Shown here: in pieces, positions 7,225-63,341 of the stretch
How positions within the stretch are numbered: position 1 is the first letter of the stretch
How the letters are laid out: the number at the start of each line of letters is the position of its first letter
From: Aminobacter carboxidus
Lineage (GTDB): Bacteria > Pseudomonadota > Alphaproteobacteria > Rhizobiales > Rhizobiaceae
Direction: 5' to 3'
NCBI RefSeq assembly: GCF_014863355.1
Contig: NZ_JACZEP010000001.1
Coordinates: forward strand, 620,001 to 684,000
Length of the DNA stretch: 64,000 nucleotides
Translations under genes and position numbers: made by a program
The notes under the pieces: model-generated
Told to the model about the DNA's origin: nothing
Databases searched by the model: none
What the model saw: the letters and a program-made list of their open reading frames with translations, nothing else

Positions 7225-7641
7225 TGTTTTACTCCTTAAGCCAACTACACACTGGCTCTTTTTTAACTGGCGCCCCTAGCCCGTCCGGGGGGAGAAACGG
7301 GCTGGGCGCCGAACAGTTCCGAATGTCGTGTCGAAATGCGGCTGAACCGAACCTGAAGTTGGGTGATTGCCCGGCGCAAATGAGGCTGAAGCGTGACGTT
7401 GCATGCGTGCAACAGCCGTGTCAGGAGCTTTGCCAGCCATTTGCCTGAAGCCGCTTGGTACAAGGGGTTGGGCGTTCTATATCTCGCATGCCGGCCTGCT
7501 TCGCCGGCAGGTTTTCGGGCGGTATCGTTGGCATTCGCCACATTGCCGCCAGATCGATGAACGGCTTTTTACAGAGGTTACCAAGAGGTAGCCGAAGCCT
7601 GGCTTTGCGGAAGCTGGCGGATAGCAGGAGAGGACGACTGG
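7225..7641. other. Divergent intergenic region between porin and SDR genes, with a 5'-leader stem-loop
   Basis: No gene is supported here. At 7269-7310 the arms ggcgcc and agcccgt are repeated in inverted order around a GA-rich loop, about 45 nt upstream of the porin ATG and therefore probably within its mRNA leader. The SDR gene start at 7642 is preceded by an aggag-type site (around 7627). Confidence 0.5.
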
Positions 7642-47032: not shown

Positions 47033-47082
47033 GTGAGGTTCCCTTCTCTTTTTGGTTTGCAGTCTTTTGATCTGGCTTTGGA

Positions 47083-48905: not shown

Positions 48906-49488
48906 CGCCGCCCTCCTTTTCGGTCATGGCGACGACACGCCGGGCTGCCTCTTCGAGGCTGACCTGCCAGTTCATGGCGAGCGAGCGCAATTGCGCGTAG
49001 GCGCGTTCGTCGTCGAAGCCCTGGCCAGACAGGGCAGTGACCGCGCGCACGATCGTCTGGCGTTCGGCGACGCGCGATTGCAGAGCCGCGACCTCGTCGG
49101 CCAGCCGACGGCGGGCGGCAAAGCTCTGGCGGGCGATGAGCAGGGCGCTGTAGACCCCGGCATTGCCGACCGGCTTCAACAGTTGCGCGTCGGCCTTGTG
49201 CGACAAGGCCCACTCGATGCGGCCCGGCGCTTCCGAGCCGATCAGTGCGATCGTCGGCATGGGTGCTGCACCGCGCGGCCAGGGAAACTGCTGGTCGAAG
49301 CCGAGGTCGACGTCGAAGAACACGAAATCAGCCGCCAGTGCCTCGGCCGGCAATTCGGGCCAGCAATCGACCACCTGGAGGCCGATGGCCGCGAGCTGCC
49401 GCGCGATCGCGCTGACGGTGGCATGGGGGCGATGCAGCACGAATGCCCTGGCGCCGCCGAGATTGGGGATGTGCGAGACACGGCTCAT
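48883..49488 (-). CDS. amiR: ANTAR-domain antiterminator, AmiR-like
   Basis: A 201-residue protein with an N-terminal pseudo-receiver (VVDCWPELPAEALAADFVFFDVD, about residues 39-62, and ALIGSEAP), a coiled coil (LADEVAALQSRVAERQTIV) and a C-terminal ANTAR domain (FDDERAYAQLRSLAMNWQVSLEEAARRVV, about residues 157-186). AmiR of Pseudomonas binds leader RNA and stops a terminator forming. Here it overlaps the AmiC-like gene by 4 bp, and a terminator stands in the leader of its own operon (50603-50645). Symbol by analogy. Confidence 0.86.
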   Translation of the reverse strand: MSRVSHIPNLGGARAFVLHRPHATVSAIARQLAAIGLQVVDCWPELPAEALAADFVFFDVDLGFDQQFPWPRGAAPMPTIALIGSEAPGRIEWALSHKADAQLLKPVGNAGVYSALLIARQSFAARRRLADEVAALQSRVAERQTIVRAVTALSGQGFDDERAYAQLRSLAMNWQVSLEEAARRVVAMTEKEGGVDQSHRA

Positions 49489-50591
49489 GACACGACCTTG
49501 AGTCGTTGGCGGCCGAAGGTTTTTGTACGGTCGTAGCGCGAAAGATACGGGTCCGGAGCAACGCGTTCGATGTGGCTCACGCGCTCGAAGCCGAGCCCTG
49601 ATATCCGGCCGATCTCGACCGGCAGGGTCGCGTGCTGGGTCCGCGGGTCGACGGCGATGTTGCCGAATGGCGTCGCGAAGCTGGCCCCGGCAAAGGCGGT
49701 GGACAGTTCGGCGAAGCCTGCCCCGGGATTGGCCGATAGCACCTTTGCCAGCACCATGACCGAGGCATAGGCCGAAGCCTCGAAGGAGGAAGCCGGTGTA
49801 TCTGATGTGGCGCTGCTGCCGTCACGGAAATAGGGCCCGACGGACAGGTGCCCTCGGCCGGCTTCGCCGATCGCCGGCAGCTCGGCCTCGGTCAGGTTGC
49901 ACGACAGGATCGGGCAGCGCTCGGATCCGAAATGCGGATCGGTGCGCGCCAGTTCGGAATAGGCGGCGAAGAAGGCGTAAGAAGAGGTGCCGATCAGATT
50001 GTTGAGGACAAAGGACGGTTTGGTTACCCTGATCTCGTCGATCAGCCTGGAGACGTCGGTCTCGCCGATCGGCAAGTAGCGCTCGCCCAGCGCCTTGCCG
50101 CCGGCGTCGGCGATCAGGTCGCGGGCGACGCGATTGGTCTCCCAGCCCCAGATGTAATTGGAGCCGAGCAGGAAGCCGTCAGCGCCGAAGCGCGGCACGA
50201 CATGCGCAAGCAACGGCACCAGGTGCTGGTTCGGGCACGCATGCATGTAGACGACATGCTCGTTTGCCTCGAAGCCTTCGTAGGGGCACGCATACCAGAG
50301 CGCCGCGCCGGCCTTTTCGAGGACGGGAATGACTTCCTTGCGGCTCCAAGAGGTGACGGCGCCGACGACGTGACGCGCTTTGCTCTGCCGCAGGATCTCT
50401 TCGCAGAGCGGGGCATAGCGGTCGATGTTGCCGCCGGGGTCGCGTTCGATGGCGACGAGCTCGATGCCGCGTGTGGGATCGGCGTTGATGTCTGATATGG
50501 CGTGCATCGTGCCGGCGTGACACGCGTTGGCGACGAGCCCATAGCTGCCCGAGCGCGAATACAGCACGCCGATTTCGATGCGCGACTTCAA
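49485..50591 (-). CDS. amiC: AmiC-like cytoplasmic amide sensor (Peripla_BP_6 family)
   Basis: The product (368 aa) is a type-1 periplasmic-binding-protein fold without a signal peptide, as in AmiC: it starts MKSRIEIGVLYSRSGSYG from TTG 50591, which has GGGAGGA just upstream. Further blocks are RDPGGNIDRYAPLCEEILRQ, VVGAVTSWSRKEVIPVLEK, LLGSNYIWGWETNRVARDLI and SYAFFAAY. AmiC binds amides and releases AmiR. A 24-residue in-frame extension runs into the leader terminator and is rejected. It is the first gene of the seven-gene operon. Symbol by analogy. Confidence 0.88.
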   Translation of the reverse strand: MKSRIEIGVLYSRSGSYGLVANACHAGTMHAISDINADPTRGIELVAIERDPGGNIDRYAPLCEEILRQSKARHVVGAVTSWSRKEVIPVLEKAGAALWYACPYEGFEANEHVVYMHACPNQHLVPLLAHVVPRFGADGFLLGSNYIWGWETNRVARDLIADAGGKALGERYLPIGETDVSRLIDEIRVTKPSFVLNNLIGTSSYAFFAAYSELARTDPHFGSERCPILSCNLTEAELPAIGEAGRGHLSVGPYFRDGSSATSDTPASSFEASAYASVMVLAKVLSANPGAGFAELSTAFAGASFATPFGNIAVDPRTQHATLPVEIGRISGLGFERVSHIERVAPDPYLSRYDRTKTFGRQRLKVVS

Positions 50592-50720
50592 TAAATCCTC
50601 CCAAAAACAAAAATGCCCCGCAGCCACCGCCAAGAGGCGAGGCATACGAGGCATGTTTGCCACCCGGCAGTCGGGGCCGGTATTTCGTTTTAGCGTAGCT
50701 TGTCGCGCCTGCCAGTCAAG
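50592..50720 (-). promoter_or_regulatory. Promoter and attenuator leader of the amiC1 operon (leader 1)
   Basis: On the minus strand there is a -35 TTGACT (50714-50719), a 16-bp spacer and a -10 TACGCT (50692-50697). A hairpin with 5-bp stem ccggc and 7-nt loop follows (50664-50680), then two direct copies of ATGCCTCG (50638-50655), either of which can pair with GGGGCAT before a T-rich run. The layout promoter, hairpin, terminator, first gene fits ANTAR control. Confidence 0.65.
50603..50645 (-). terminator. Leader terminator ahead of amiC1
   Basis: ATGCCTC (50639-50645) pairs with GGGGCAT (50613-50619, with a G-U pair) around an inner CGCC/GGCG hairpin. TTTTTGTTTTT follows, and the GGGAGGA ribosome site begins directly after. 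Its position before the first gene makes it an attenuator. Confidence 0.72.
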
Positions 50721-50759
50721 GGGGGCCGATGCGAATGCATGGATCGGTCCGGTGCCGGG

Positions 50760-51377
50760 TCAGACCTGGTGGCCGACGAGGGCGACGCCAAGGCCGATGA
50801 GGATCGAGCCGCAGGCTTTGGGCACGATCCAGCCGGCGTCGCCGGATGCGACGCGGGCAAGAGTGACCGAAGCGATGCCGACGGCGGCGACGTCGGCTAT
50901 CGAGAAGACCAGATTGACGAACATGCCAAGCAGCAGGAACTGCAGCCACAACGGGAAAGCTGCAGCGGGATCGACGAATTGCGGCAGGAAGGTCAGGAAG
51001 AACAGGGCGGTCTTCGGATTGAGGATCTCGACGATGACGCTGTCGCGCAAGGTTTGGGAAGCAGGGCTGGCGGCCTTGCTTGTCGACTTGCCCCAGCCCA
51101 TGAACATGGAGAGCCCGAGCCAGACGAGATAGGCGGCGCCGGCAAGCTTGATCGCCGCAAAGAGCATCGGTGCCTGCTCGATCAACGAAGTCAGGCCGAT
51201 GGCGGCGGCGAGGATATGGACATAGCAGCCGATATGGACGCCAAAAGCTGCCATCAGCCCGGCCCTGCGGCCGAGCGCTACGGTCTGCGCGGTCATGTAG
51301 AGGATTGCCGGCCCAGGCATGCAGGCAAAGGCCAGCGTTGCGGCGGCGAAGGGAATCCACAGTTGCAGCGATGGCAT
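50760..51377 (-). CDS. LysE/RhtB-family amino-acid exporter
   Basis: A 205-residue protein with five to six TM helices. The family start PFAAATLAFACMPGPAILYMT (about residues 9-29) and the block ALGRRAGLMAAFGVHIGCYVHILAAAIGL are characteristic, as is NPKTALFFLTFLPQFVDP. Members export amino acids or derivatives. It lies 41 bp beyond the promoter of the amiC1 operon, in the same orientation but upstream of it, and is probably a separate unit. Confidence 0.9.
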   Translation of the reverse strand: MPSLQLWIPFAAATLAFACMPGPAILYMTAQTVALGRRAGLMAAFGVHIGCYVHILAAAIGLTSLIEQAPMLFAAIKLAGAAYLVWLGLSMFMGWGKSTSKAASPASQTLRDSVIVEILNPKTALFFLTFLPQFVDPAAAFPLWLQFLLLGMFVNLVFSIADVAAVGIASVTLARVASGDAGWIVPKACGSILIGLGVALVGHQV

Positions 51378-51545
51378 GTCTGGCTCCTCCCGGATGATGC
51401 GATCGCGGAGAGGAGTAGGCCCGTCACTGACGTGAAAACATACGACAGATGCCGTATTTGGAACGCGCTGGGTGTTGGCTAATTTGTTGATGGTTAAGCA
51501 GATATTTACTCGAGGGTTGCCCGCGGCGACGCCGGTGCGCGGCTG

Positions 51546-52205
51546 TCACGCCGTGGGCAATCCCAAGCGCACCGCATAGGCGGTCAGTTCGGCGGCACTG
51601 TGGAGATTGAGCTTGCCCATCAGGTTTTCCCGGTGCTTGCGCGCCGTCAGCGGGCTGATGCCGAGCCGCTCGGCGATCTCGCGCGCCGTAAGCCCCTGCG
51701 CCACCAAGGCAAGGATTTCGCGTTCGCGCCGCGTCAGCGGCACCGGCGAAAGGATATCGGCTGCAGCCGACGGCCTGCTGTTTCGGCTCGGCTCGCTGAT
51801 CGCGAAGCGTACGGTTCGGGCGAGGTAGGTTCCGCCTTTCCTGACCGCCTCGATCGCCTCACCAAGTTCCTCGGGGTCACCGTCCTTGGTCAGGTAACCG
51901 CTGGCGCCCGCCTCGAGCGCCGCGCGCACCGTCCTCGGCTCGATATTGGCGGTCAGGACCACGATCTTGAGTCGGGGCACAAGCTCCCTGATGTCGGAGA
52001 TGAACTGGATCCCGGCAACGCCCGGCATGCCGAGGTCGAGGATCAAAAGGTCGGCGCGTGTCTTCGCTACCTGCGCCAGCAAAGCTTCGCCGTCAGCCGC
52101 CTCGGCTACCACCGACATGTTGTCCATCGTCGAGATGAGCATTTTCAGCCCTTCGCGCACCAGCGCGTGGTCGTCCGCGATGATGAAGGTGAGAGGGCGG
52201 TTCAT
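51546..52205 (-). CDS. NarL/FixJ-type response regulator
   Basis: A receiver domain (FIIADDHALVREGLKMLIS; phospho-Asp in LLILDLGMPGVAG, about residue 55) is followed by a LuxR-type HTH (LTRREREILALVAQGLTARE then IAERLGISPLTARKHRENLMGKL, about residues 150-195). The total is 219 residues from ATG 52205; an upstream ATG at 52220 would add five. It is divergent from a hybrid kinase, which is its likely partner. Confidence 0.92.
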   Translation of the reverse strand: MNRPLTFIIADDHALVREGLKMLISTMDNMSVVAEAADGEALLAQVAKTRADLLILDLGMPGVAGIQFISDIRELVPRLKIVVLTANIEPRTVRAALEAGASGYLTKDGDPEELGEAIEAVRKGGTYLARTVRFAISEPSRNSRPSAAADILSPVPLTRREREILALVAQGLTAREIAERLGISPLTARKHRENLMGKLNLHSAAELTAYAVRLGLPTA

Positions 52206-52336
52206 ATGGTCACCATTCATGGTCAAGCGGTGCAAGTTGGTAGAACGCCAACTTATGGGAAATAAATTGCCGGTAGATCAACTGTCCCTGATGAGGACAG
52301 CTTGTGCGATCTTCATCCGGCACTTGGGGGACTCAG

Positions 52337-54103
52337 ATGCAGGAAGACAAGATACGCCAGGCTCTCGTTGAGCTTCTCTACCGCAATTCGTATGGCGTGG
52401 TCATCTCCAACATCGTTGTTTCCCTCGCCGCCGTCTACGTGCTGAGCAATGGCGTTTCCACGGCCTGGTTGGCCGGCTGGCTTGCTGCGCTGTACACGCT
52501 GACGGCGGTGCGTGTTCTCGCGTCCCGCCGGTTCTTCAGCCGTCCGCACGATTCGGTGTCCATCATGCGATGGGCGTGGCTCGCGGCGGTCTTGTCCTGG
52601 GTTTCGGGACTGTTGTGGGGGATATTCGGCTGGGTCGGTTTCCTGCCCGAAACACCGCTTCTGCTATCTTTCACCATTGTGGTGCTGACAGGTCTCGTTT
52701 GCGGCACCGTGCCTTCATTTTCGGCCTTTCCACCGGCGCTTGTCGGCTCGATCCTCGCGACGGTTCTGCCGGTCGCCGCGCGCGTCATCACCAGCGGCAG
52801 CGCGATTTCGACCGGCTTCCTTTTTCTGCTCGCCTCGCTTGTCGCGATCAACTTCTACTACTGCCGCATCACCTATCGCATGCTGCGCGAGACGATCAGC
52901 CTGCGCCTGGAGAACGAAAGGCTTGTCGAGCACCTGCAGGAAGAGCGCGACCGCGCACAGAACGCCGATCGCGCCAAAACCCGCTTCCTGGCCGCCGCGA
53001 GCCACGACCTGCGCCAGCCGATCCATGCGCTCAGCCTGCTGGTGTCGACGATTGCCGTGCTGGCGAAACGCGGCAACGTGCCGGCAGAACAGGCGCGTGG
53101 TCTCGCCGGCCGGGCCAAATCGATCATCGGCAATCTCAGTGGTCTGTTGAACGCGCTCCTAGACATCTCCAAACTCGATGCCGGCATTGTCACCGTCGCC
53201 CGTGAAACGGTCGGACTGCGCGAACTCTTCCGCGACTTCCGTGAGGAGTTCAGCGCCGAGGCAAAGCAGCGTGGCTTGAAATGGCGGGTGGTCGACAGCG
53301 ATCTTAAGGTTGAAAGCGACCCGATGATGCTGAAGCGCGTGCTCAACAATCTGCTGACCAATGCCTTTCGCTACACGAAGGAGGGCGGTGTCGTGCTCGG
53401 CTGCCGCAAGCGTGGCAATCACGTCGAGATCCAGGTCTGGGACACGGGGCCCGGCATTCCAGCCGACCAGCAGACGGCGATCTTCGAGGAGTTTGTGCAA
53501 TTGCAGAACCCGGCGCGGGATCGCACTCAAGGCCTCGGCCTGGGGCTCGCCATCGTTCGCCGCACCGCCGAGTTGTTGAAGCACCCGCTAAAGCTGAAAT
53601 CCTCGCCCGGGCGCGGGTCGATGTTTTCGATCACGGTTCCCGAAGTCCACGCGGCGAGGGCGCCGATCCTCCAGCGCGAGACGGTTGGCGAGGCCATCAC
53701 TGGTGGCATCATGGTGGTCGAAGATGAGAACGACATCCTCGAGGCAATGGAGCAACTGCTCACGATCGAAGGGCATCGTGTCTATGCGGGACGATCGGCA
53801 GCGGAGGCTCAGGCTGAACACGCAGCGGCTGCGATGCGCGGCGAAGCGCCGGTCGACCTGATCATCTCCGACTATCGCCTGGCGAATGGCGCAACCGGCC
53901 TGGAAGCGATCCGGACATTGTGTGCCTATCTCGGTCACGCCGTGCCGTCGATCATCATCACCGGCGACACCTCGCCGTCGCGGCTGAAGGAGGTGAACAC
54001 CAGCGGCAGCCGCATACTGCACAAGCCGATCTCGGAAGCCGAGCTCAGGCAGGCGATCCAGGCGGCATGGGCTGGGGGCAGGGCGATGACGGCGGGCGAG
54101 TGA
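52337..54103 (+). CDS. Hybrid sensor histidine kinase with C-terminal receiver
   Basis: From ATG 52337 (GGGGGA upstream) the 588-residue protein has an N-terminal membrane domain of about five helices (residues 25-190), a coiled coil, and HisKA with the phospho-His in AAASHDLRQPIHAL (about residue 223). HATPase boxes are NNLLTNAFRYT, VWDTGPGIP and GLGLGLAIVRR. The C-terminal receiver has VVEDENDILEAMEQLL and LIISDYRL (phospho-Asp). It is divergent from the NarL-type regulator and convergent with the NCS1 permease gene, so the pair may sense a substrate of the hydantoinase pathway; that is inference from position only. Confidence 0.92.
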   Translation: MQEDKIRQALVELLYRNSYGVVISNIVVSLAAVYVLSNGVSTAWLAGWLAALYTLTAVRVLASRRFFSRPHDSVSIMRWAWLAAVLSWVSGLLWGIFGWVGFLPETPLLLSFTIVVLTGLVCGTVPSFSAFPPALVGSILATVLPVAARVITSGSAISTGFLFLLASLVAINFYYCRITYRMLRETISLRLENERLVEHLQEERDRAQNADRAKTRFLAAASHDLRQPIHALSLLVSTIAVLAKRGNVPAEQARGLAGRAKSIIGNLSGLLNALLDISKLDAGIVTVARETVGLRELFRDFREEFSAEAKQRGLKWRVVDSDLKVESDPMMLKRVLNNLLTNAFRYTKEGGVVLGCRKRGNHVEIQVWDTGPGIPADQQTAIFEEFVQLQNPARDRTQGLGLGLAIVRRTAELLKHPLKLKSSPGRGSMFSITVPEVHAARAPILQRETVGEAITGGIMVVEDENDILEAMEQLLTIEGHRVYAGRSAAEAQAEHAAAAMRGEAPVDLIISDYRLANGATGLEAIRTLCAYLGHAVPSIIITGDTSPSRLKEVNTSGSRILHKPISEAELRQAIQAAWAGGRAMTAGE

Positions 54104-54210
54104 GATTGTCAGGCTGAGAGGCGCGGTTTGACTCGCGCCAAAGGGAAACAAATCCGGGCGCCATCGGCTCTCGATGGTGGTTTTCGAGAACGCGACCGCG
54201 CCCGGCAGGC

Positions 54211-55548
54211 TCAGGAGGCAATGGCGACAGTTCTGACCCGCGACGACAGCGCCCAGAACAAAAGGAAGCTGCTGGTGACGGTTGCTGGCGCCGAGAGCAG
54301 TTCGAGATGCGGAATGGCGAGCAGTATGATGCCGATCGCGACCGCGCCGAACCAGGCGACCATTCCGGGCGCGTAGTAGGCCGGAAAATCGTCGTCATCC
54401 CGCGCACTTTCCTCGCCGCTGCCGTCATGCTGTCCGCACAATATGTAGGCCAGCGCCACGCCGACCCAGGCGACGACGAAGATGCCCTGATAGGCGAGTG
54501 CGACGAGCAGATACTGGAAGATATTGGCGAGCATCACGAAATAGACGATGATGCCGACGATGATCGCCCAGACATATTTCGGCATCTCCAGCTTGAACAC
54601 CAGCCGGAAGAACGCCTGCATGTTGACTGTCGACAGGTAGAAATTGGTGGTGTTGATGCGCGTCTGGCTGATCCAGACGAACAGCAGCCCGAGCGCGCCC
54701 ATCATCACGATCAGCGCCTTGACGACCGACACCTCCGAGGTTGCGCCCTCGAGCGGGATCGTCTGCACCAGGAAGATGCCGACCAGGCCGTTGACGAAAT
54801 AGGTCAGCGTGTAGAAGGGCAGGCCGAAATTGAACACGGCGTGGTAGGTCTCGTCCTCCTTCTTGCCGAAGCGGGCGAAGTCGAAGGTGCACATCATCAT
54901 CCACCAGACGCCCATGAAGGCGATGAAGACGTTGATCCAGCCATAGGGCGGGGCGCCGCCTTCCGGCGTCATGGTCAGCCAGGCGTTGGAATAGCCGTAA
55001 TGCGAGATGGCATAGATCACGGTGCCCATCAGGCCGACGAGATAGAGCGGCAAAAGATAGCCGTTGAACTTGTCGAGCCAGTGCTGGACGCTGCCGAGGA
55101 TCAGCGGCACGCTGTAGATGCAGACGATCAGGGCAGCGACTGCGAAGGTCAGGCCTTCGAAATAGTAGGTCGCAGCCATGGCGATGACCGAGCCTTCGAA
55201 CACGGCGTAATAGATGCTGCTGACCGCATAGATGAAGGTGGCGATCGCCGATCCGTAGCGGCCGAACAAAAGCCTGGAGAACAGCGACACCGACAGGCCG
55301 GTCCTGATCGCGTATCTGGTGATGACCGCATTGATCGCCGAGTACGAAATGACCGTCAGTATCAGGCCAATAATCGTGTTGGCGGTACCATAAATCTCGG
55401 CGAGCGTAGCCGAGATGATGAGAAAGAACATGGCGCTGCAGATCGCCCAAAACGCCATAGTGAGGTTCATCTTCGGCATGCGTCCACTGGGTGGGACAGG
55501 CCGTTGCGAATAGTCTAATTCCCCTGCGACATCGAGACTTCCAGACAT
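54211..55548 (-). CDS. NCS1-family nucleobase/hydantoin-type permease
   Basis: A 445-residue protein with 12 TM helices. It belongs to the cytosine/purine/allantoin/hydantoin (NCS1) symporter family: RMPKMNLTMAFWAICSAMFF at the start, SYSAINAVITRYAIRTGLSVSLFSRLLFG in TM2-3, and YGWINVFIAFMGVWWMMMCTFDFARF in the middle. As the third gene of the hyu operon it probably imports the substrate of HyuAB. A 110-bp gap with a small hairpin separates it from hyuB. Confidence 0.88.
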   Translation of the reverse strand: MSGSLDVAGELDYSQRPVPPSGRMPKMNLTMAFWAICSAMFFLIISATLAEIYGTANTIIGLILTVISYSAINAVITRYAIRTGLSVSLFSRLLFGRYGSAIATFIYAVSSIYYAVFEGSVIAMAATYYFEGLTFAVAALIVCIYSVPLILGSVQHWLDKFNGYLLPLYLVGLMGTVIYAISHYGYSNAWLTMTPEGGAPPYGWINVFIAFMGVWWMMMCTFDFARFGKKEDETYHAVFNFGLPFYTLTYFVNGLVGIFLVQTIPLEGATSEVSVVKALIVMMGALGLLFVWISQTRINTTNFYLSTVNMQAFFRLVFKLEMPKYVWAIIVGIIVYFVMLANIFQYLLVALAYQGIFVVAWVGVALAYILCGQHDGSGEESARDDDDFPAYYAPGMVAWFGAVAIGIILLAIPHLELLSAPATVTSSFLLFWALSSRVRTVAIAS

Positions 55549-55617
55549 GGTTCATCTCCAGATTTTTTGATTATTGCCAGACTTCTGCTTCTGATCGTGC
55601 AAATCCCGTTGGCGAAG

Positions 55618-55652
55618 AAGGCAGCAAGCCCGTGACATGAGCCTGCTGCCTT
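55618..55652 (-). other. Intercistronic hairpin between hyuB and the NCS1 gene
   Basis: A 9-bp stem (aaggcagca, partner tgctgcctt) with a 17-nt loop just after the hyuB stop. It lacks a T tract, so it is more likely a processing or stability element than a terminator. Confidence 0.4.
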
Positions 55653-55658
55653 CCCTGA

Positions 55659-57668
55659 TCAGGCGACCTTGAGGGTCGCGTTGGCGGCTTGGCCCGAGGC
55701 AGTCCAGTACGGAACCGTCCGGCGCTTCAGCATCTCGCGGAACTCAGCGGTGGTCTTGGGAAGCAGCTCGCCCGAACCCCAGTCGACGATCACGCCGTAC
55801 TGCCGGATCAGATCGAGCATGTTGAGTTTCTTGTCGCGATAAAGCGCCGCGATCTTCTCGGCATCCTCGTTCAGCCATTCCTTGCGGTGGCTGGCGATGC
55901 GCGCCCTTTCCGCGAGCGTGGCGTTCTCGTCGATCTTGTACTCGTCGAGATCAGTGTCGACCACATGGACGACGACGCCATAGTCTTTCTTGGCCCGCTC
56001 CACCGAAACGTAGCCTTCGACCACGTCACTGAGCACGCTATTGATGTCGCGCTTGAGCGGATCGCCGAGACCACCTCCGCCGGCCGAGGGGCGCTGGACC
56101 GTGTCGCCCTGCTGGAGCGGCACGCCGGAGAACAGCGACCCAAGATAGCGCTCCGTTTCCTGACCGGGATTGACCCACACACCATGCGGGATGGAGGGCA
56201 ATCCGCCCCACAGGCCCCAGGTGATCGAGCGTTCGCGGTCGCAGCAGTAAGACACCACGGTGCGCTCACAGGCGTAAAGCGTGCCGCCCTTCTGGACGCC
56301 GAGGCCGCCGCGAAACTCGCCAGGGCCACCGGAATCGGTCATCAACTCGTGGCAGGTAGTCAGCACCGGCGACAGGCGCTCCTGGCCTTCGAAGGGCTGC
56401 GTTCCGAGCTGGACGCCGAACACCGGACCGGTGGCAGCCCAGCCGTCACGGCCGTTTCGCGCACCCCAGCCGCCGACCATCCAGTCGTACCACATGAAGT
56501 ACGGCTTGCCTTCGTGGCGCGTGTCGCGGCCGCCGATCAACAGATAGTCGAGGTTGAAAGTGCAGGCCATGGCGCGCTCCGGCAGAACCTCTGCCCAAAG
56601 CTCGAACACCGCGTTCATGATCTTTTCGAACGGACCCGATGCGAAACCGGCGACCGGGGTCGGCCATTCGGCATTGACGACCGAACCCAACGGACCGGCG
56701 TCGACAGTCACCACGCGGTAAAAGCCGGAGTTCATCGGAATATCAGGTGACTGCATTTTCGTTCCGGCAACAACTGCCGCGAACGCGCCGCCATAGCAGC
56801 AATTCAGGAACGAACCGACGGACTTGGGATGCGATCCGGTCAGGTCATAATGGACGCGGTCGCCATCGATGGTCATCTTGACCTTGATGGGGACAAGGCC
56901 TTCGCCCAGGTCAGGGTCGACGTCGATGTAGTCGATGGTCTCCCAGGTGCCGTCAGGCAAATCGGAGATGCGCTGGCGCGTCATGTCCTCGACGTAGTCC
57001 TGAACCTCGTTGAACGACTTCTTGATCGTGTCGACACCATACTTGTCGCACAGGCGCTGGATCTCGCGCTCCGCCAGCCGGCAGGCTTCGGCCTGTGCCT
57101 GGAGGTCGCCGATGATGTCGCTTGGCGCGCGCGTATTGTGGGCGATCAGCTCGGCCACGTCGGAAAGATACGTGCCCTTGCTATAGACCCTGACCGGTGT
57201 GATGCGCAGGCCTTCGGCCATGTGATCGAGCGCATTCACGTTGAAGGAACCGGGCACGGCACCGCCGACATCCGCCCAATGGCCGTTGGCCTGGGCGTAG
57301 CCAAGCAGTTCACCCTTATAGAACATCGGCGCAAACAGGCGGGTGTCGTTGAAGTGGGTGCCGCCCTGGTAGACGTCGTTGATGACGAAGACATCGCCCG
57401 GATGAACGTCGTTGCCGAACTTCTTGATCACCGCCTTGGCGGTGAGGTGAAGCGTTCCAACGTGAGCGGCGATATCGCCGCTGCCTTGCATGATGGTGTC
57501 CCCGGTCGGGTCGCACAATGCCGAGGAGAAGTCGCGGGAGTAGATGACGAACGAGTAGCAGGTGCGCAGGATCTGCTCCGCCATCTGGTCGACGATGTTG
57601 ACATAGGCGTTCTTCAGAACTTCAAAGGTAACTGGATCGAGCGTACGGCGATCTTTTTTCGGTGCCAT
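55659..57668 (-). CDS. hyuB: Hydantoinase/oxoprolinase B subunit
   Basis: A 669-residue protein of the HyuB family from ATG 57668 (GGAG 7 nt upstream). It has LDPVTFEVLKNAYVNIVDQMAEQ at the start, YSRDFSSALCD, GDIAAHVGTLHLT, DVFVINDVYQGGTHFNDTRLF, and a central TGSHPKSVGSFLNCCYGG, all conserved in HyuB/5-oxoprolinase proteins. With HyuA it forms an ATP-dependent hydrolase of hydantoins, 5-oxoproline or similar five-membered cyclic amides. It lies 43 bp after hyuA. Confidence 0.93.
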   Translation of the reverse strand: MAPKKDRRTLDPVTFEVLKNAYVNIVDQMAEQILRTCYSFVIYSRDFSSALCDPTGDTIMQGSGDIAAHVGTLHLTAKAVIKKFGNDVHPGDVFVINDVYQGGTHFNDTRLFAPMFYKGELLGYAQANGHWADVGGAVPGSFNVNALDHMAEGLRITPVRVYSKGTYLSDVAELIAHNTRAPSDIIGDLQAQAEACRLAEREIQRLCDKYGVDTIKKSFNEVQDYVEDMTRQRISDLPDGTWETIDYIDVDPDLGEGLVPIKVKMTIDGDRVHYDLTGSHPKSVGSFLNCCYGGAFAAVVAGTKMQSPDIPMNSGFYRVVTVDAGPLGSVVNAEWPTPVAGFASGPFEKIMNAVFELWAEVLPERAMACTFNLDYLLIGGRDTRHEGKPYFMWYDWMVGGWGARNGRDGWAATGPVFGVQLGTQPFEGQERLSPVLTTCHELMTDSGGPGEFRGGLGVQKGGTLYACERTVVSYCCDRERSITWGLWGGLPSIPHGVWVNPGQETERYLGSLFSGVPLQQGDTVQRPSAGGGGLGDPLKRDINSVLSDVVEGYVSVERAKKDYGVVVHVVDTDLDEYKIDENATLAERARIASHRKEWLNEDAEKIAALYRDKKLNMLDLIRQYGVIVDWGSGELLPKTTAEFREMLKRRTVPYWTASGQAANATLKVA

Positions 57669-57711
57669 TTCCAATCTCCAATTCAAATTTGTGTGGCGAT
57701 AGGTGCGTCGT

Positions 57712-59772
57712 TCAGGACTGCTGCGGGACGTGCATCCTGATGATCAGGTACTCGTCCACTTCGGCCTTGATCCCGGGCGGCACCACGATGGTGGAGTCGA
57801 GCTGGTCGATGATCGCGGGACCAACGACCACCGCGCCTGCATGCAGGGTCGAGCGGTCGTAGATCGGCGTCTTGATGCGCTCGGGCGCTTCGTCGAACCG
57901 CACCATGCGCTCGCCAACCGGAGCCGGCAGCGGGGCCTTGCGCAGTTCGTGCTTGGCGAGCTCTGCCTTGCGGTTGAGGCCGGTGGCCTTGACCTGGATG
58001 CGGCACACTTCAACCGGGGCATCGGGCCGGGAGTAGTTGTGCTCGCGGCCATGCTCCTCGTGGAACTGCTTGACCGCCTCGTCGAGGTTGGTGATGTCGG
58101 CGCTGACCGGGATCGACATGGACCGCCACTGGCCGAGGTAACGCATGTCGATGTAGCGCTGGAACAGCATCTGCTCAGGCGAGATGTCTTCGCTCAACAG
58201 GCGGTCGTGCCCGTCTTCTTCGAGGACGCGGAAGGCGTCGTTGAGCTCGGCCATGTCGATGGCGCTGACCGTGTCGGTGTACATCTGCGTGATGTCGTGG
58301 GTGATGTCGACAAGCAGGCAGCCCATGGCCGAGGTGACGCCCGGATTTGGCGGGATCAGGACGACGGGGATGTACAGGTCCCTGGCCAGTGCGACGCCGT
58401 GCAACGCGCCGGCGCCGCCGAAGGCGACCAGGGCGAAATCGCGTGGATCGTAGCCCTTGCGCAGGGATACCAGGCGAACGGCATCCGCCATGTTGGCGTT
58501 CGCGACCTTGAGGATCGAAAGTGCTGCCTGCTCCGTGTCCATGCCGAAAGGTTCGGCGATGACGCGATTGATGGCACCTTCGGCAAGCTTGACGTCAAGT
58601 TCGACCTTGCCGCCGGCGAGCTTAGTTCCCAGGCGGCCGAGATAGACGTTGGCGTCGCAGTTGGTCGGCTCTGTTCCGCCCTGGTTGTAACAGACCGGTC
58701 CCGGCGTCGAGCCAGCGGATTGTGGTCCGTTGCGAAGCGCGCCAGCCGCGTCGCGCCAGGCGAGCGAGCCGCCGCCGGCGCCGATGGTCAGGACCTCGAT
58801 GCTTGGGAAGCGGATCGGATAGCCGTATTCGACATGCCAGTCGTTGGTGACGTGGAGGTGGCCGTCGGAGCAGAGGCTGATGTCCGTGCTCGTGCCGCCC
58901 ATGTCGAGACTGATGGAGTTCTTGTATCCGGCCAGTTCGGAGATGAAGCGGCTGGCGATTGCGCCGGCGGCGATACCGGAAGCGGCAAGGCGTGCCGCGA
59001 ATTTCGTCGCGCCCTTGGCGGTCATCACGCCGCCGCCGGAGTGGAGCAGCAGCACATCGCCGGCATAACCGCCTTGCTGCATGCGGCCTTCGAGCTCGGC
59101 ACCGTATAGTCCCGCAACCGGCCCAAGGACGGTGTTTGCGACAGTGGTGTTGAAGCGCTCATGCTCGAAGATCTCAGGCATGATGTCGCTCGACAGCGAA
59201 ATCGAAACGCCGGGCAGTTCCTCGAGCAGGATGTCGCGCATCCGCTGCTCGTTCTCGGGATTGACGAAGGAATTGACGAAGCAGATGGCAACGTTGTTGA
59301 CCTTGCGCTTCCTGATGACGCGGGCGAGTTCGCGCGCCTCGGTTTCGTTGACGCCTTCGATGACCTTGCCGGAGTAGTCGATGCGCTCGGTGACCACCAG
59401 CCGGTCACGGCGCGGCAGGTAGGGAGGAGCCATTTCCTTGTAAGTGTCCCAGAGGTCGTCACGCGTGCCACGCCGGATTTCGATGACGTCGCGAAAGCCC
59501 TTGGTCGTCACCATGATGGCGGGCGGGAAGCGGCGGGTGATCAGCGCGTTCGTTGCCAGCGTCGTGCCGTGCGAGAACAGGATGATGTCGCGAAGGGCGA
59601 CGCCGCCCGCTTCGATGCCCTTGAGCACGCCGTCGATCGGATCCGGTGTCGTCGGCGTCTTGGCGACGTGTATCTTGCCGGAAGCCTCGTTCAGGATGCA
59701 TACATCGGTAAATGTGCCGCCAACATCGCAGGCCACACGCACCGCTGTGCCAAACGTCTCTACTTTATTCAC
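57712..59772 (-). CDS. hyuA: Hydantoinase/oxoprolinase A subunit
   Basis: The start is GTG 59772 with GAGGAGGAA five nt upstream, giving 686 residues. The N-terminus VRVACDVGGTFTDVCIL (about residues 10-26) is the actin-like phosphate-1 loop of HyuA, followed by FSHGTTLATNALITR, LLLHSGGGVMTAKGA, SLDMGGTSTDISL, IGAGGGSLAWRD and GGAGALHGVALAR. ATP-dependent ring opening of N-substituted hydantoins or 5-oxoproline is the family reaction; which substrate applies here is open. A longer frame to 60093 runs through the leader and is not coding. Confidence 0.93.
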   Translation of the reverse strand: MNKVETFGTAVRVACDVGGTFTDVCILNEASGKIHVAKTPTTPDPIDGVLKGIEAGGVALRDIILFSHGTTLATNALITRRFPPAIMVTTKGFRDVIEIRRGTRDDLWDTYKEMAPPYLPRRDRLVVTERIDYSGKVIEGVNETEARELARVIRKRKVNNVAICFVNSFVNPENEQRMRDILLEELPGVSISLSSDIMPEIFEHERFNTTVANTVLGPVAGLYGAELEGRMQQGGYAGDVLLLHSGGGVMTAKGATKFAARLAASGIAAGAIASRFISELAGYKNSISLDMGGTSTDISLCSDGHLHVTNDWHVEYGYPIRFPSIEVLTIGAGGGSLAWRDAAGALRNGPQSAGSTPGPVCYNQGGTEPTNCDANVYLGRLGTKLAGGKVELDVKLAEGAINRVIAEPFGMDTEQAALSILKVANANMADAVRLVSLRKGYDPRDFALVAFGGAGALHGVALARDLYIPVVLIPPNPGVTSAMGCLLVDITHDITQMYTDTVSAIDMAELNDAFRVLEEDGHDRLLSEDISPEQMLFQRYIDMRYLGQWRSMSIPVSADITNLDEAVKQFHEEHGREHNYSRPDAPVEVCRIQVKATGLNRKAELAKHELRKAPLPAPVGERMVRFDEAPERIKTPIYDRSTLHAGAVVVGPAIIDQLDSTIVVPPGIKAEVDEYLIIRMHVPQQS

Positions 59773-59984
59773 GTCAAGTTCCTCCTCAGGCTGATGTTTG
59801 CTCGAAGTTCCCACCACGCGGATTGTTTTGACAAAGCTCCGCATGTCCGAGTTCCCAAGGGAATCCCGGTGATTTTTGTTTGAGAGCGACTTGCGTTGCT
59901 CCAAGCGGCAATGGGTATTGTCAGCGTCGTTGCTGCCTGCGGAGCCGAAGAAAAGTCGGACGCAGCGCACTGGTGATGAAACGC

Positions 59985-60022
59985 AAAAAGGCTCCGGCGG
60001 AGGTACCCGCGGGAGCCTTTTT
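59985..60022 (-). terminator. Leader terminator ahead of the hyu operon
   Basis: The stem aaaaaggctcc / ggagccttttt continues through one C-C mismatch into GCGG/CCGC and closes a hexaloop GUACCU. On the minus strand it ends in CCTTTTTGCG. It is about 210 nt upstream of hyuA and downstream of the promoter, so it would stop hyu transcription unless prevented. Confidence 0.8.
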
Positions 60023-60093
60023 GCTCTGTTCTCAGCCCGCAGCGTCGCAGGCCTGATGTCGATGATCATCCGAGAGTTCAGGATTTCTGTCAA
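59985..60093 (-). promoter_or_regulatory. Promoter and attenuator leader of the hyu operon (leader 2)
   Basis: On the minus strand there is a perfect -35 TTGACA (60088-60093), 17-bp spacer and -10 GATGAT (60065-60070). A hairpin with hexaloop GACGCU follows (60033-60055; seven pairs including G-U). Then GAGC-AAAAAG-GCUC (60015-60028) can form a second small hairpin that uses the 5' strand of the terminator at 59985-60022. The two folds are mutually exclusive, as in ANTAR-controlled leaders. Confidence 0.7.
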
Positions 60094-60249
60094 CTGGCAA
60101 TTCGCGCGATGCGTCCAATGCCAGGGAATGTCTTGGATTTAGGCGGTTTGCCGGCTCCGCTGGAGTTGTTCGACAACGCACTTTGCAGTGGATCTCATAG
60201 TCGCATTGCCGTGTCGAAGACGAATGCTGCCTGCCGACGCGCTCGCGAG

Positions 60250-60355
60250 TTGACGGACTACCTCGCTTCAGGCACAACTTACGTAAGGACAGCGATGTCC
60301 CTAACGGTCGAGCAAAGGCGCTTGCTGCGGTTTCCCCGCGCTGGGCGCTTTTTTT
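60250..60355 (+). promoter_or_regulatory. Promoter and attenuator leader of amiC2-amiR2 (leader 3)
   Basis: -35 TTGACG (60250-60255) with CACAAC 17 bp downstream is a weak promoter candidate. A hairpin GGAC-AGCGAU-GUCC (60287-60300) follows, whose hexaloop has A at position 1 and G at position 4, the consensus I recall for ANTAR target RNAs. A second hairpin, AGCAA-AGGCGC-UUGCU (60311-60326), would compete with the terminator at 60314-60355. Confidence 0.62.
60314..60355 (+). terminator. Leader terminator ahead of amiC2
   Basis: AAAGGCGC pairs with GCGCTTT (one bulge) around an inner GCGG/CCGC hairpin and is followed by seven T. It is 40 nt upstream of the amiC2 start, as expected for an attenuator. 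Confidence 0.72.
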
Positions 60356-60398
60356 GTGTCGAGTTCGCGGATGAACAATCTGACGGAGTTGGCAATTG

Positions 60399-61556
60399 AT
60401 GGCGACAAGAACCGAAGAGCCGATCAAGGTCGGCGTATTGTTCTCCCAGACCGGCGTCACTTCGGTGATGGAGCGCAGCATGCTGAATGCCACGCTGTTT
60501 GCGATCCACGAGGTCAATGTATCAGGCGGCATCAACGGACGTGAACTCGTCGCCGTCCATTACGATCCGGCTTCCGACGCGGTTGCCTACAATCGCCTGG
60601 CAAATCGGTTGCTGGTCGAGGACGGCGTCAGGATTATCTTCGGCTGCTATATGTCGAGCACGCGCAAGGCCGTGCTGAAGGCGGTCGAGCACCGCAATGG
60701 GCTACTCTGCTACCCCGCCCAGTATGAGGGCTTCGAATACTCGCGCAATGCCATCTACTGCGGCGCCGCCCCGAACCAGAACAGCGTTCAGCTGGGCGAA
60801 CACCTCCTCAACCATGTCGGCAAGCGCTTCTACATGGTCGGCTCCGACTACATTTGGCCGCGCGAGTCCGACCGCATCATGAACGAGATGGTGCTGAAGC
60901 ATGGTGGGGAGGTGGTCGGCCGGGGCTACCTCAAGCTCGACGCCAGGCGGGCTGCCTACAAGCCGCTGATATCAGACATCAAGCGCAAGCAGCCGGACGT
61001 GATCTTCTGCAATTTCGTCGGCGAAAGCATCGTCCATTTCTACCAGGCCTTCGCCGAAGCCGGCCTCGATGCCAGGTCGATGCCGATCGCCAGCCTAACC
61101 ACCAGCGAGTCCGACATCCAGGCGATGGGCATCGACGTGGGCGCCGGGCACATGACGTCAGCCACCTATTTCCAGTCTGTCGGGGGCCTGCAAAACGAAC
61201 GCTGTGTCGAGCGCTACAAAAAGAAGTTCGGCGACGATGCCGTGACGAATATGTGCTGGGAAGCCGCCTATTTCCAGGTCCACGTGGTGGCGAATGCGCT
61301 GCGCAAAGCCAGGACCGACGATGTCGAGGCGTTGCGGCCAGCCATTCTCGGTTCGGAGTTCGATGCACCCCAAGGGCGCATCCGCATCGACCCCGACAAC
61401 GCGCACACCTATGTGTGGCCGCGGGTCGCACGGGCGCGCGAGGACGGGCAGTTCGAGATCCTGTCTAAATCGGCAACGGCGATCAGGCCCGATCCCTATC
61501 TCGCCAGCTACAACCCCGAGGAATGGGGGGAGCGCCTGGCCATGCATTCTTTATGA
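60399..61556 (+). CDS. Second AmiC-like cytoplasmic ligand sensor
   Basis: A binding-protein-fold sensor of 385 residues without a signal peptide, starting MATRTEEPIKVGVLFSQTGV from ATG 60399; a TTG one codon upstream has slightly better spacing to GGAG. Blocks shared with the protein at 49.5 kb are LLCYPAQYEGFEYS (urea/amide-binding type), NHVGKRFYMVGSDYIWPRESD and ITTSESDIQ-like ASLTTSESDIQAMGI. It is followed 86 bp later by a second ANTAR protein and is the likely sensor of an intermediate or substrate of the adjacent hyu operon. Confidence 0.87.
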   Translation: MATRTEEPIKVGVLFSQTGVTSVMERSMLNATLFAIHEVNVSGGINGRELVAVHYDPASDAVAYNRLANRLLVEDGVRIIFGCYMSSTRKAVLKAVEHRNGLLCYPAQYEGFEYSRNAIYCGAAPNQNSVQLGEHLLNHVGKRFYMVGSDYIWPRESDRIMNEMVLKHGGEVVGRGYLKLDARRAAYKPLISDIKRKQPDVIFCNFVGESIVHFYQAFAEAGLDARSMPIASLTTSESDIQAMGIDVGAGHMTSATYFQSVGGLQNERCVERYKKKFGDDAVTNMCWEAAYFQVHVVANALRKARTDDVEALRPAILGSEFDAPQGRIRIDPDNAHTYVWPRVARAREDGQFEILSKSATAIRPDPYLASYNPEEWGERLAMHSL

Positions 61557-61642
61557 CCCCGTGCCGAGGGGCATGGGAACAAGAAACCGAACGACACCAA
61601 AGGCAGGCGTTGCAACCGACGACATTGCCGTAATGAGGAACA

Positions 61643-62299
61643 ATGGTATCACGTAGCCCCCACGTGGCGCCGCATGACGGATCAGCGCCGATCCAGATCA
61701 AGGACATACGGTCGCTGCGTGTGCTGTTGCTGCAGCCCAAGAGCAGCGAGGGCGAGGAGCTTTGGCAGCACCTCAACCGCATCGGCTGCCAGGTCCAGAC
61801 CAACTGGCCGCCGCCAGCCGAAATTCCCGCCAATATCGACGTGGTGTTCGCCTTCATCCGCCCGCTGGTCGAAGGCGGCATCACCTGGAACTGGAACGCC
61901 GACGATCCGCCGGCCGTGCTGATCGCCATCGTCGACTACGAGAACCCGATCATTGTCGAGAAGGTGCTGCGCCTGCGGGCCCAGGCGGTGATCGGCCTGC
62001 CGCTGCGGACATTCGGAATCCTGGCGAACATACTTTTGAGCGTCAATAATCACCGGCGCGAGGAGCGGCTGCGCATCCGTGTCGAGCGGCTTTCGGCAAA
62101 ACTCAAGGCACATCGCGACATCGACAAGGCCAAGGAAATTCTGATGTCTACCAACAAGGTGTCGGAGCAGGTAGCTTACGAAACTTTGCGCGAGCAGGCG
62201 ATGAACAAGCGAACCACGATCGAGGCGATTGCGCTCGCGATCATCAACGCCAGCGACGTGCTCAAGCTGCCGATGAGTGAGCCTGCAGACGTTGCGTAG
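61643..62299 (+). CDS. Second ANTAR-domain antiterminator (AmiR-like)
   Basis: A 218-residue protein with a degenerate receiver (LRVLLLQPKSSEGEELWQHL, VVFAFIRPLVEGG), a coiled coil (RREERLRIRVERLSAKLKAH) and a C-terminal ANTAR domain (KAKEILMSTNKVSEQVAYETLREQAMNKRTTIEAIA, about residues 162-197). It is 32 per cent longer at the N-terminus of the receiver than needed and has no obvious phospho-Asp, as in AmiR. The ATG is only two nt from GAGGAA. It forms a unit with the sensor at 60.4 kb and lies between two homologous leaders (2 and 4). Confidence 0.86.
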   Translation: MVSRSPHVAPHDGSAPIQIKDIRSLRVLLLQPKSSEGEELWQHLNRIGCQVQTNWPPPAEIPANIDVVFAFIRPLVEGGITWNWNADDPPAVLIAIVDYENPIIVEKVLRLRAQAVIGLPLRTFGILANILLSVNNHRREERLRIRVERLSAKLKAHRDIDKAKEILMSTNKVSEQVAYETLREQAMNKRTTIEAIALAIINASDVLKLPMSEPADVA

Positions 62300-62389
62300 G
62301 CCGCAGGTGATGCAGTCCTCGGGTCCACCGAGTAGACGCCATCCGGCCCGACCTCAAGCGTGTGAACGGCGGCGATTGGCAACTTGTCA

Positions 62390-62498
62390 TTGACAGAATG
62401 CCCTAAATCTCACACGCTCTCATCCATCGGCCCCGCATCGAAGCGGGCCGTTAGCAGAGCAAAAAAGCTCCCGCGGGTTACTCCGCCGGGAGCTTTTT
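62390..62498 (+). promoter_or_regulatory. Promoter and attenuator leader upstream of the XRE-cupin gene (leader 4)
   Basis: -35 TTGACA (62390-62395), 17-bp spacer and CACGCT (62413-62418). Then comes a GC-rich hairpin with hexaloop AUCGAA (62428-62450), with A at position 1 and G at 4. GAGC-AAAAAA-GCUC (62457-62470) follows and would compete with the terminator at 62461-62498. It aligns with leader 2 over its whole length. It could also be the terminator of amiR2, but its own promoter argues otherwise. Confidence 0.65.
62461..62498 (+). terminator. Leader terminator upstream of the XRE-cupin gene
   Basis: GCTCCC/GGGAGC plus GCGG/CCGC with one bulged C close a hexaloop GUUACU; five T follow. 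It may also end transcription from amiR2. Confidence 0.8.
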
Positions 62499-62657
62499 GC
62501 GTTTCGGACTTGAACGCGGCCTGGGCCGTCCGTGGCGGGCTGTGTCAGGTCTCCCAAGACGCGATGAAGGCGTAGCTGGTCGCCAGAATTCTCGGTTCGG
62601 GCAGGTCGCGACCGGCCCGTAATTGCAACGAAGTTGGCATCGACGGAGGTGGCTTAA

Positions 62658-63341
62658 ATGAGAACGACCGGCCACGAGTGTGGCGTGCAATTGCGAGACA
62701 TGTCCGAAGACGCTGCGGCGTTGCGTCAGAACCCGCATGCTTTGCGCCAGATGGCGGGAAACCATCTCGAAATTGCGATCGGCCGGGAGGTGCGCGCGTG
62801 CCGGCACAAGCATGGTATGTCGATCATGGAACTCGCACGTGCCGCGGGCCTGTCGCTCGGCATGATGTCCAAAATCGAAAACGGCATCATCTCGGCGTCG
62901 CTTACCACGCTGCATCAACTGTCGCGCGCCTTGGCCGTGCCGCTGACCTCGCTGCTGAAGCGCCCGGTGGAGGTGCGAGAGGCCATGTTCGTGAAAGCTG
63001 GCGCAGGCATCCCGGTGGAGCGGTGCGGCACGCGCGTCAGCCAGCAAAACAAAATGCTGGGCTACATCATGTCGGCCCCCGGCAGCGTATCCGTCGAGCC
63101 CTGCCTCGTCACCCTCGCCGAAGAAGCTTGCCGGCCGGCCTTTCTCCAGCATGCCGGCATGAAGTTCATCTACATGCTGGAAGGCGAGATAGCCTACCGC
63201 CACGGCGCTGGGCTCTACGGCATGTCGCCAGGCGACAGCCTGTTCTTCGACGCAGCATCGCCGCATGGGCCGGATCAACTGCTGAAATTGCCCGTCCGTT
63301 TCCTGTCCGTTGCGTCGTGCCGACTGGGAGGTAAGGACTGA
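62658..63341 (+). CDS. XRE-family regulator with cupin domain
   Basis: A 227-residue protein with an XRE HTH (IGREVRACRHKHGMSIMELARAAGLSLGMMSKIENG, about residues 42-77) and a C-terminal cupin_2 domain (CLVTLAEEACRPAFLQHAGMKFIYMLEGEIAYRHG...MSPGDSLFFDA, about residues 152-198). Such regulators bind small ligands in the cupin and often control amino-acid or amine catabolism. The start is ATG 62658 with GGAGGTGG upstream. An attenuator leader precedes it, so antitermination may control its level. Confidence 0.88.
   Translation: MRTTGHECGVQLRDMSEDAAALRQNPHALRQMAGNHLEIAIGREVRACRHKHGMSIMELARAAGLSLGMMSKIENGIISASLTTLHQLSRALAVPLTSLLKRPVEVREAMFVKAGAGIPVERCGTRVSQQNKMLGYIMSAPGSVSVEPCLVTLAEEACRPAFLQHAGMKFIYMLEGEIAYRHGAGLYGMSPGDSLFFDAASPHGPDQLLKLPVRFLSVASCRLGGKD

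Follow-up and report, generated by a model that had tools for sequence, protein, structure and literature searches.

The closest described counterpart of the locus reported here is the AmiC/AmiR system of Pseudomonas aeruginosa with its amiE leader, where an AmiC-like sensor is encoded beside the antiterminator AmiR, the leader carries a terminator and the genes served are of the amide-catabolic type. Regulons in which one ANTAR protein acts on more than one attenuated leader are also on record for EutV of Enterococcus and NasT of Bradyrhizobium, according to the accessible parts of two reports (PMC3369931, PMC6759348); the first of these proposed, in 2012, ANTAR proteins acting on several leaders, most of which precede nitrogen genes. 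For actinobacterial ANTAR RNAs, phylum-wide covariance searches gave looser loops, since adenine at the first loop position and guanine at the fourth (A1 and G4) are conserved in somewhat more than 50% of the predictions and the linkers span 2–25 nucleotides (nt), as stated in the accessible part of that study (PMC8164766). The canonical target is taken here as two hairpins, P1 and P2, each with a loop of six nucleotides (hexaloop) carrying A1 and G4, and with P2 overlapping the terminator. The overlap of P2 with the 5′ arm of the terminator is the arrangement of ANTAR-controlled attenuators.

In this work, we analysed a window of 64,000 nucleotides of Aminobacter carboxidus (contig NZ_JACZEP010000001.1, positions 620,001 to 684,000), which belongs to a draft genome of 6.29 Mb whose nearest named relatives, judged by AmiR2, are Aminobacter species; all coordinates are positions in this window. 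It encodes two AmiC-AmiR pairs, amiC1-amiR1 and amiC2-amiR2, and has leaders before amiC1, the hydantoinase gene hyuA, amiC2 and a gene for an XRE-cupin regulator. The original prediction, made from the sequence of the window alone, held that each of these four units starts with a promoter-like pair, a hairpin and a terminator; all of these are present and are conserved in relatives. Both of the AmiC-AmiR pairs that it had placed within positions 50592–62657 were confirmed (Peripla_BP_5 in the sensors; AmiR_N and ANTAR in the antiterminators), but amiR1 (48883..49488) lies outside these limits. Its view that classical systems of this kind control a single leader was already outdated by the multi-leader regulons proposed in 2012 in the accessible part of PMC3369931.

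We consider it likely that the two pairs form separate modules, in which AmiR2 would act on the amiC2 leader, with those of hyuA and XRE as probable further targets, and a divergent AmiR1 would control its own operon through the leader there. AmiR2 matches the P. aeruginosa AmiR (PDB 1qo0) at E 4e-21 and AmiR1 does so at E 1.5e-8. In contrast with the P. aeruginosa system, AmiR2 appears to serve three leaders, and AmiR1 is divergent, with a P2 loop that lacks G4. The AmiR2 part is a further case of the known multi-leader ANTAR regulons; unlike those of EutV and NasT, its targets include hydantoinase and XRE-cupin genes, and a second, apparently insulated ANTAR module is adjacent. As for the looser loops of the actinobacterial RNAs, in the present case one loop type tracks one AmiR clade with an altered ANTAR domain and overlaps a terminator. 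The AmiR1 leader class, which lacks G4 clade-wide and goes with the altered ANTAR domain, is new as far as our literature search shows; no description of this class or of these Aminobacter leaders was found by that search, most subscription papers being outside its reach.

The AmiR1 Operon and Its Leader

The features of this module are as follows (loops are given in square brackets).

50692..50719, minus strand: amiC1 promoter-like pair, TTGACT ... TACGCT; TTGAC positionally conserved in all 30 upstream regions
50664..50680, minus: leader P1, CCGGC[7-nt loop]GCCGG; four of five pairs altered on both sides in 30 sequences
50650..50661, minus: leader P2, GGC[AAACAU]GCC, with A1 and without G4; no variation in GGC, A1 and GCC among the 30 sequences
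50603..50654, minus: intrinsic terminator, whose 5′ arm contains the 3′ arm of P2 (fold; alignment of 29)
49485..50591, minus: amiC1, AmiC-like sensor (Peripla_BP_5, 280 bits)
48883..49488, minus: amiR1, divergent AmiR (AmiR_N 42.3 bits, ANTAR 36.8 bits)
48000..48905, minus: oppC-type permease (order conserved)
47083..48003, minus: oppB-type permease (order conserved)
45389..47683, minus: SBP_bac_5 solute-binding protein (SBP); the listed open reading frame (ORF) overlaps oppB, and the true start is probably further in
44455..45399, minus: FmdA acetamidase/formamidase (family match, order conserved)
42644..44539, minus: ABC ATPase with two ABC_tran stretches (family match, order conserved)

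Relatives of amiC1 were detected at E ≤ 1e-80 in 88 of 297 family genomes, the weaker of which may not be orthologues, and the leader was inspected in the 30 best amiC1 loci, including that of the window (54.9–100% identical). It is present in all 30, each of which also has an amiR1 ORF; a stricter pair finder links 29 of them, L087 being left unlinked (L and G labels denote loci and genomes). The leader is laid out as TTGAC, a −10 element, usually AAATACCGGC-loop-GCCGG (P1), 2 bases, GGC[A.....]GCC (P2), the terminator and the start codon. Ten loci were fetched for gene order, one of which is cut by a contig end; the order amiC1-amiR1-oppC-oppB-SBP-fmdA-ABC is kept in the nine that are uncut.

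The pairing of P1 is indicated by a covariation of 0.119 versus 0.060 in shuffled alignments, a value that none of 500 shuffles reached, whereas the stem letters of P2 never vary and are thus uninformative on pairing. The P1 loop has 7 nt in 21 of the 30 sequences, and G occupies its fourth place in 24. In P2, position 4 of the loop is C in 23 sequences, U in four, A in three and never G; compared with the canonical target, this leader has the P2 hexaloop, the C:G closing pair and A1 (30/30), but G4, which is required by characterised ANTAR proteins, is lacking from its predicted P2. P2 and the terminator are predicted to be mutually exclusive, as seen from the fold and from a longer alignment of 29 sequences from which L088 was left out; an overlap of P2 with the 5′ arm of the terminator is found in all four leaders of the window.

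A covariance model of AmiR1-type leaders (R1) matched, at E ≤ 1e-5, all 31 amiC1 genomes that were rescanned versus none of 15 genomes without an amiC1 match at 1e-80. The training set of the model includes 28 of these 31 genomes; G848, G851 and G924, which are outside it, scored 50–52 bits. One R1 target per genome was detected in 28 of the 31 and two in G173, G227 and G047, the second ones of G227 and G047 being weak. Within the genus, represented by 10 genomes including that of the window, R1 gave one strong site in each of five (52–56 bits), and the next best match scored 26.6. The second leader of G173 (L209:2200-2500; 33.3 bits) has a promoter, P1, P2 (loop AUCCCC) and a terminator, and is flanked by an amidohydrolase gene and by an Opp-type ABC operon, which it precedes. 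No AmiC or AmiR relatives were found on the 8-kb stretch around it, as expected of a target that would be controlled in trans.

The Probable AmiR2 Module

The features of the second module are listed below.

60250..60278, plus strand: amiC2 promoter-like pair with a weak −10 (sequence, by eye)
60287..60300, plus: amiC2 leader P1, GGAC[AGCGAU]GUCC, with A1 and G4
60309..60324, plus: amiC2 leader P2, CGAGC[AAAGGC]GCUUG, with A1 and G4 (sequence; P2 finder)
60314..60355, plus: amiC2 leader terminator, overlapping P2 (fold)
60399..61556, plus: amiC2, AmiC-like sensor (Peripla_BP_5, 463 bits)
61643..62299, plus: amiR2, AmiR antiterminator that keeps the G4-contacting lysine (AmiR_N 110.9 bits, ANTAR 51.1 bits)
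60065..60093, minus strand: hyuA promoter-like pair, TTGACA-17-GATGAT (kept in G000, G002, G003 and G004)
60035..60052, minus: hyuA leader P1, loop GACGCU, with G4 and without A1 (cross-genome comparison)
60013..60026, minus: hyuA leader P2, GAGC[AAAAAG]GCUC, with A1 and without G4 (cross-genome comparison)
59983..60024, minus: hyuA leader terminator (fold)
57712..59772, minus: hyuA (Hydantoinase_A with Hydant_A_N and Hydant_A_C)
55659..57671, minus: hyuB (Hydantoinase_B, 505 bits)
54211..55548, minus: third gene of the hyu unit, 94–98% identical beside hyuB in five genus genomes
62390..62418, plus: XRE promoter-like TTGACA with a weak −10 (TTGACA kept in four genomes)
62429..62449, plus: XRE leader P1, loop AUCGAA, with A1 and G4 (ACCGAU in three relatives)
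62457..62470, plus: XRE leader P2, GAGC[AAAAAA]GCUC, with A1 and without G4 (cross-genome comparison)
62461..62498, plus: XRE leader terminator, which may also end the amiC2-amiR2 transcript (fold)
62658..63341, plus: XRE-cupin regulator (HTH_3 and Cupin_2)

The amiC2 leader of the window is a canonical RNA, with A1 and G4 in both hexaloops (AGCGAU and AAAGGC) and with the overlap of P2 and the terminator. It occurs in seven of eight AmiR2-type loci, the exception being L060, a locus of a metagenome-assembled genome (MAG) in which no such P2 was found before amiC. A1 and G4 are present in both hexaloops in G000, G002, G003 and G004, and in P2 in G001, G005 and Mesorhizobium sp. Root552. In the hyuA leader of the window, by contrast with the canonical form, P1 has G4 only and P2 has A1 only; in the XRE leader, P1 agrees with it and P2 has A1 but A at position 4. 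These two leaders are closely similar and align gap-free in the clade of the window, where hyuA is divergent from amiC2, XRE follows amiR2, and each gene has its own leader. The order in G001 and G005, which represent two sister species, is amiC2-amiR2-leader-hyuA-hyuB-third gene, and there the leader directly before hyuA has the loops AACGUU and AAAGAA, both with A1 and G4. A relative of the XRE-cupin gene (54% identical) is located further downstream on the same strand in these two genomes; in G001 it comes after a gene for a DRL-type oxidoreductase. Searches of Pfam, NCBIfam and PDB sequences gave no family match for the third gene of the hyu unit, apart from one chance PDB match at E 0.12.

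Six genus genomes bear amiR2; the hyuA leader is found in five of these and the XRE leader in four, those where XRE follows amiR2. A covariance model built from nine hyuA and XRE leaders (R2) matched at E ≤ 0.05 only its nine sites, in the six of the 10 genus genomes that have amiC2 and in none of the four that do not. In G002 (L036:11330-11873) the hyuA promoter and P1 remain and the segment of P2 and the terminator is gone, which represents a natural attenuator-loss allele; this absence suggests that the attenuator can be dispensed with in this genome or that selection on it is relaxed. Additional candidates obtained with the GAGCAAANNNGCTC pattern were rejected: its five genomic sites comprise the hyuA and XRE leaders, two sites inside long ORFs (L050 and L053) and a fifth (L054) that, judged by sequence and fold only, has no terminator, while a reversed control pattern gave two sites. 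In the MAG locus mentioned above, which belongs to the Hyphomicrobiaceae (L060:4653-5307), a CGC[AAAGAU]GCG hexaloop before hyuA was seen by eye, nested in a short terminator-like stem with an odd exclusion geometry.

Probable Separation of the Two Modules

Across the window, R1 scored 56.2 bits at amiC1 and 16.0 at the next site, and R2 scored 66.2 bits at hyuA, 62.1 at XRE and 15.3 at the next; neither model detects the sites of the other. The two modules also occur independently among the 10 genus genomes: both are present in G000, G002, G003 and G004, the amiC1 leader is found without an amiC2 orthologue in G006, G001 and G005 have amiC2 but no amiC1 leader, and neither module is found in G007 (81% complete), G008 and G009.

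ANTAR Domains and the P2 Loop

Both AmiR proteins pass the Pfam cut-offs for AmiR_N and ANTAR, with the scores listed above. In the structure of EutV bound to RNA, as described in the accessible part of the report, Arg142, Lys149 and Glu160 hold G4 of P2, which is stacked on Tyr164 (PMC8934654). In NasR, even the replacement of the lysine by arginine weakened binding about tenfold, according to the available text of PMC7496416; an alignment of the printed chains gives K347 of NasR as the equivalent of EutV Lys149. In the 30 AmiR1 proteins, position 149 (EutV numbering) is V in 28, A in one, T in one and never K, and one residue is deleted after it; Arg175 is kept in two and Arg177 in none. Conversely, Arg142, Arg168 and a Tyr or Phe at 164 are retained in all 30, and Met172 in 29. 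K149 is found in eight of eight AmiR2 proteins, in 13 of 14 other AmiR/NasT proteins of the genus and in four of four PDB proteins.

Loops and proteins were compared in 103 AmiC-AmiR pairs (107 minus four with the ANTAR part cut off; L087 was never among them), which come from the best 30 or fewer loci per search and 20 hand-chosen regions and are enriched for AmiR1. The P2 finder looks for a terminator-linked hexaloop, ignores position 4 and prefers A1, so that its A1 count is biased; it returned a P2 for 70 of the 103 real leaders, 65 of them with A1, and for 29 of the 412 shuffled leaders that served as a control, seven of them with A1. Among pairs with K149, a P2 was found in 10 of 30, always with G4, and among those with another residue in 60 of 73, seven of which have G4; position 5 in these 60 is G in 38 and A in 16. 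An AmiR tree, which was built quickly, without the ANTAR domain, and has weak deep branches, places 53 rows in the AmiR1 clade, 52 of them with a P2. G4 appears in one of these 52 (L098), and position 5 is G in 35, A in 14 and U in three. A coupling between the loop and the protein is suggested. We regard it as a plausible, still tentative proposal that the AmiR1 clade rewrote the ANTAR recognition code: given the replacement of the lysine that reads G4 and the deletion of one residue, it would read A1-N-N-(C/U/A)4-(G/A)5-N6, perhaps a purine displaced by one position, and AmiR1 and AmiR2 would form a naturally orthogonal switch pair in one cell.

Other loops were seen outside the two modules. 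A further AmiC-AmiR pair of G005 (L031:1340-1500) has V149 and a P2 loop AAGAGU, without G4, before a terminator. The hairpin GGAAAC[AGUGGC]GUUUCC, with an A1/G4 hexaloop and no evident terminator, is present in seven loci, in at least three of them upstream of a further amiC, including L034 (upstream of the amiC near 10408). The GGAAWAACTAATTCC element occurs in five loci with another amiC, including L033 (upstream of the amiC near 7554), and no terminator-linked P2 was found for it. In L032:12430-12540, a canonical A1/G4 dual hexaloop with a terminator lies downstream of an ANTAR gene taken for nasT, at a distance of about 1.5 kb.

Folding and Chance Level

Folding of each leader, a check suggested with the original prediction, gave z-scores of −3.28 for amiC1, −5.20 for hyuA and −4.26 for XRE against 200 shuffles per leader; that of amiC2 was just −1.55, and its energy alone is not remarkable. 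Rfam at gathering thresholds matched only a tRNA in the whole window. Between 48 and 64 kb, a consensus scan found three promoters against a shuffle mean of 3.8 and 11 terminators against 11.1, neither of which is above chance, and such counts were therefore rejected as evidence. A scan for two A1/G4 hexaloops preceding a terminator gave one site in the window and three across 12 shuffles of it. Because these scans resemble the shuffles, the evidence from the single sequence is weak, and it is conservation that carries the case for the leaders.

Discussion

As regards binding, ligands, direction of control and insulation, we infer a scheme carried over from Pseudomonas AmiC/AmiR, NasR and EutV. 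When no inducer is present, each AmiC would hold its AmiR, and transcripts would stop within the leader. A small amide-like ligand would most likely bind AmiC and free AmiR, which would then bind the leader hairpins, stabilise P2 and block the terminator, so that the polymerase could pass. AmiR2 would in this way induce its own pair, the hydantoinase/oxoprolinase operon headed by hyuA and the DNA-binding XRE-cupin regulator, and AmiR1 would induce an Opp-type transporter and an enzyme of the acetamidase/formamidase family.

The original prediction had linked all these units through RNA-level control. Control of this kind fits the amiC1 and amiC2 leaders well and the hyuA and XRE leaders plausibly, but one shared network, with both AmiR proteins acting on all four leaders, seems very unlikely to us. 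The four attenuated leaders within about 12 kb and the fact that both regulators are ANTAR proteins would agree with it; nevertheless, a single network is unsupported because the R1 and R2 models do not cross-detect, the amiC1 leader and amiC2 occur independently of each other among the genus genomes, and in 28 of the 31 rescanned genomes AmiR1 has a single target above threshold. The P2 loops, moreover, obey different rules in the two modules. A reading in which regulation is confined to the two amiC leaders, while hyuA and XRE have ordinary terminators or decayed leaders outside ANTAR control, agrees with the lack of G4 in both P2 loops and of A1 in P1 of hyuA, with the absence of P2 and the terminator at hyuA in G002, and with the position of the XRE terminator, which is also at the 3′ end of amiC2-amiR2. 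We consider it unlikely, given that the hyuA terminator is between divergent genes and on its strand precedes only hyuA, that P1, linker and P2 of both leaders align gap-free and are kept across genomes with differing flanks, and that G001 and G005 have a fully canonical leader before hyuA.

It is also highly improbable that AmiR1 abandoned RNA recognition and that its operon leader is read by another protein or ligand. Lys149 and Arg177 (each in 30/30) and Arg175 (28/30), which are RNA contacts in EutV, are missing from AmiR1, and the P1 loops of the amiC1 leader are unusual; however, Arg177 is missing in AmiR2 too, AmiR1 keeps the residues at 142, 164 and 168 (each in 30/30) and at 172 (29/30), and the leader accompanies amiC1 in every rescanned genome and is absent from the 15 others. 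In addition, the hexaloop, the C:G closing pair and A1 are in line with the motif selected for NasR by systematic evolution of ligands by exponential enrichment, as given in the accessible part of PMC7496416.

Several observations weigh against the preferred reading of two separate modules with a recoded AmiR1. Two of the three proposed targets of AmiR2 break the A1/G4 rule, with A at position 4 in P2 of hyuA and XRE and G at position 1 in P1 of hyuA, and the P1 loop of the amiC2 leader has 7 nt in G001 and G005. The amiC2 leader was not detected by R2, hence the three AmiR2 leaders are not one tight sequence family. On the AmiR1 side, P1 mostly has the 7-nt loop instead of a hexaloop, and the leader of G011 scored just 25.4 bits with R1, no better than weak extra matches elsewhere. 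Arg177 is absent from all eight AmiR2 proteins. No P2 of the type sought precedes amiC in 20 of the 30 K149 pairs and in 13 of the 73 others, and the 10 K149 leaders derive from about two lineages. In a second clade, where position 149 is V or I and the deletion is absent, six of eight pairs show G4, five of the eight P2 loops lacking A1 and being perhaps misassigned; a simple correspondence of K149 with G4 was therefore rejected, as the loss of K149 alone is not the rule and the AmiR1 clade as a whole is. Finally, the tree has a single independent switch, that is, a difference between clades and not a demonstrated co-evolution, and with only one independent contrast a statistical claim of co-evolution is impossible.

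ANTAR targets have been sought as dual hexaloops with A1 and G4, a rule that would miss a large alphaproteobacterial clade. If AmiR1 reads a different base, it would show how paralogous RNA-binding antiterminators become mutually insulated, it would provide a pair at hand for tests of the residues that determine specificity, and it would offer orthogonal, amide-responsive RNA switches. For a soil bacterium, two switches with differently built leaders hint at the avoidance of cross-talk among related RNA switches.

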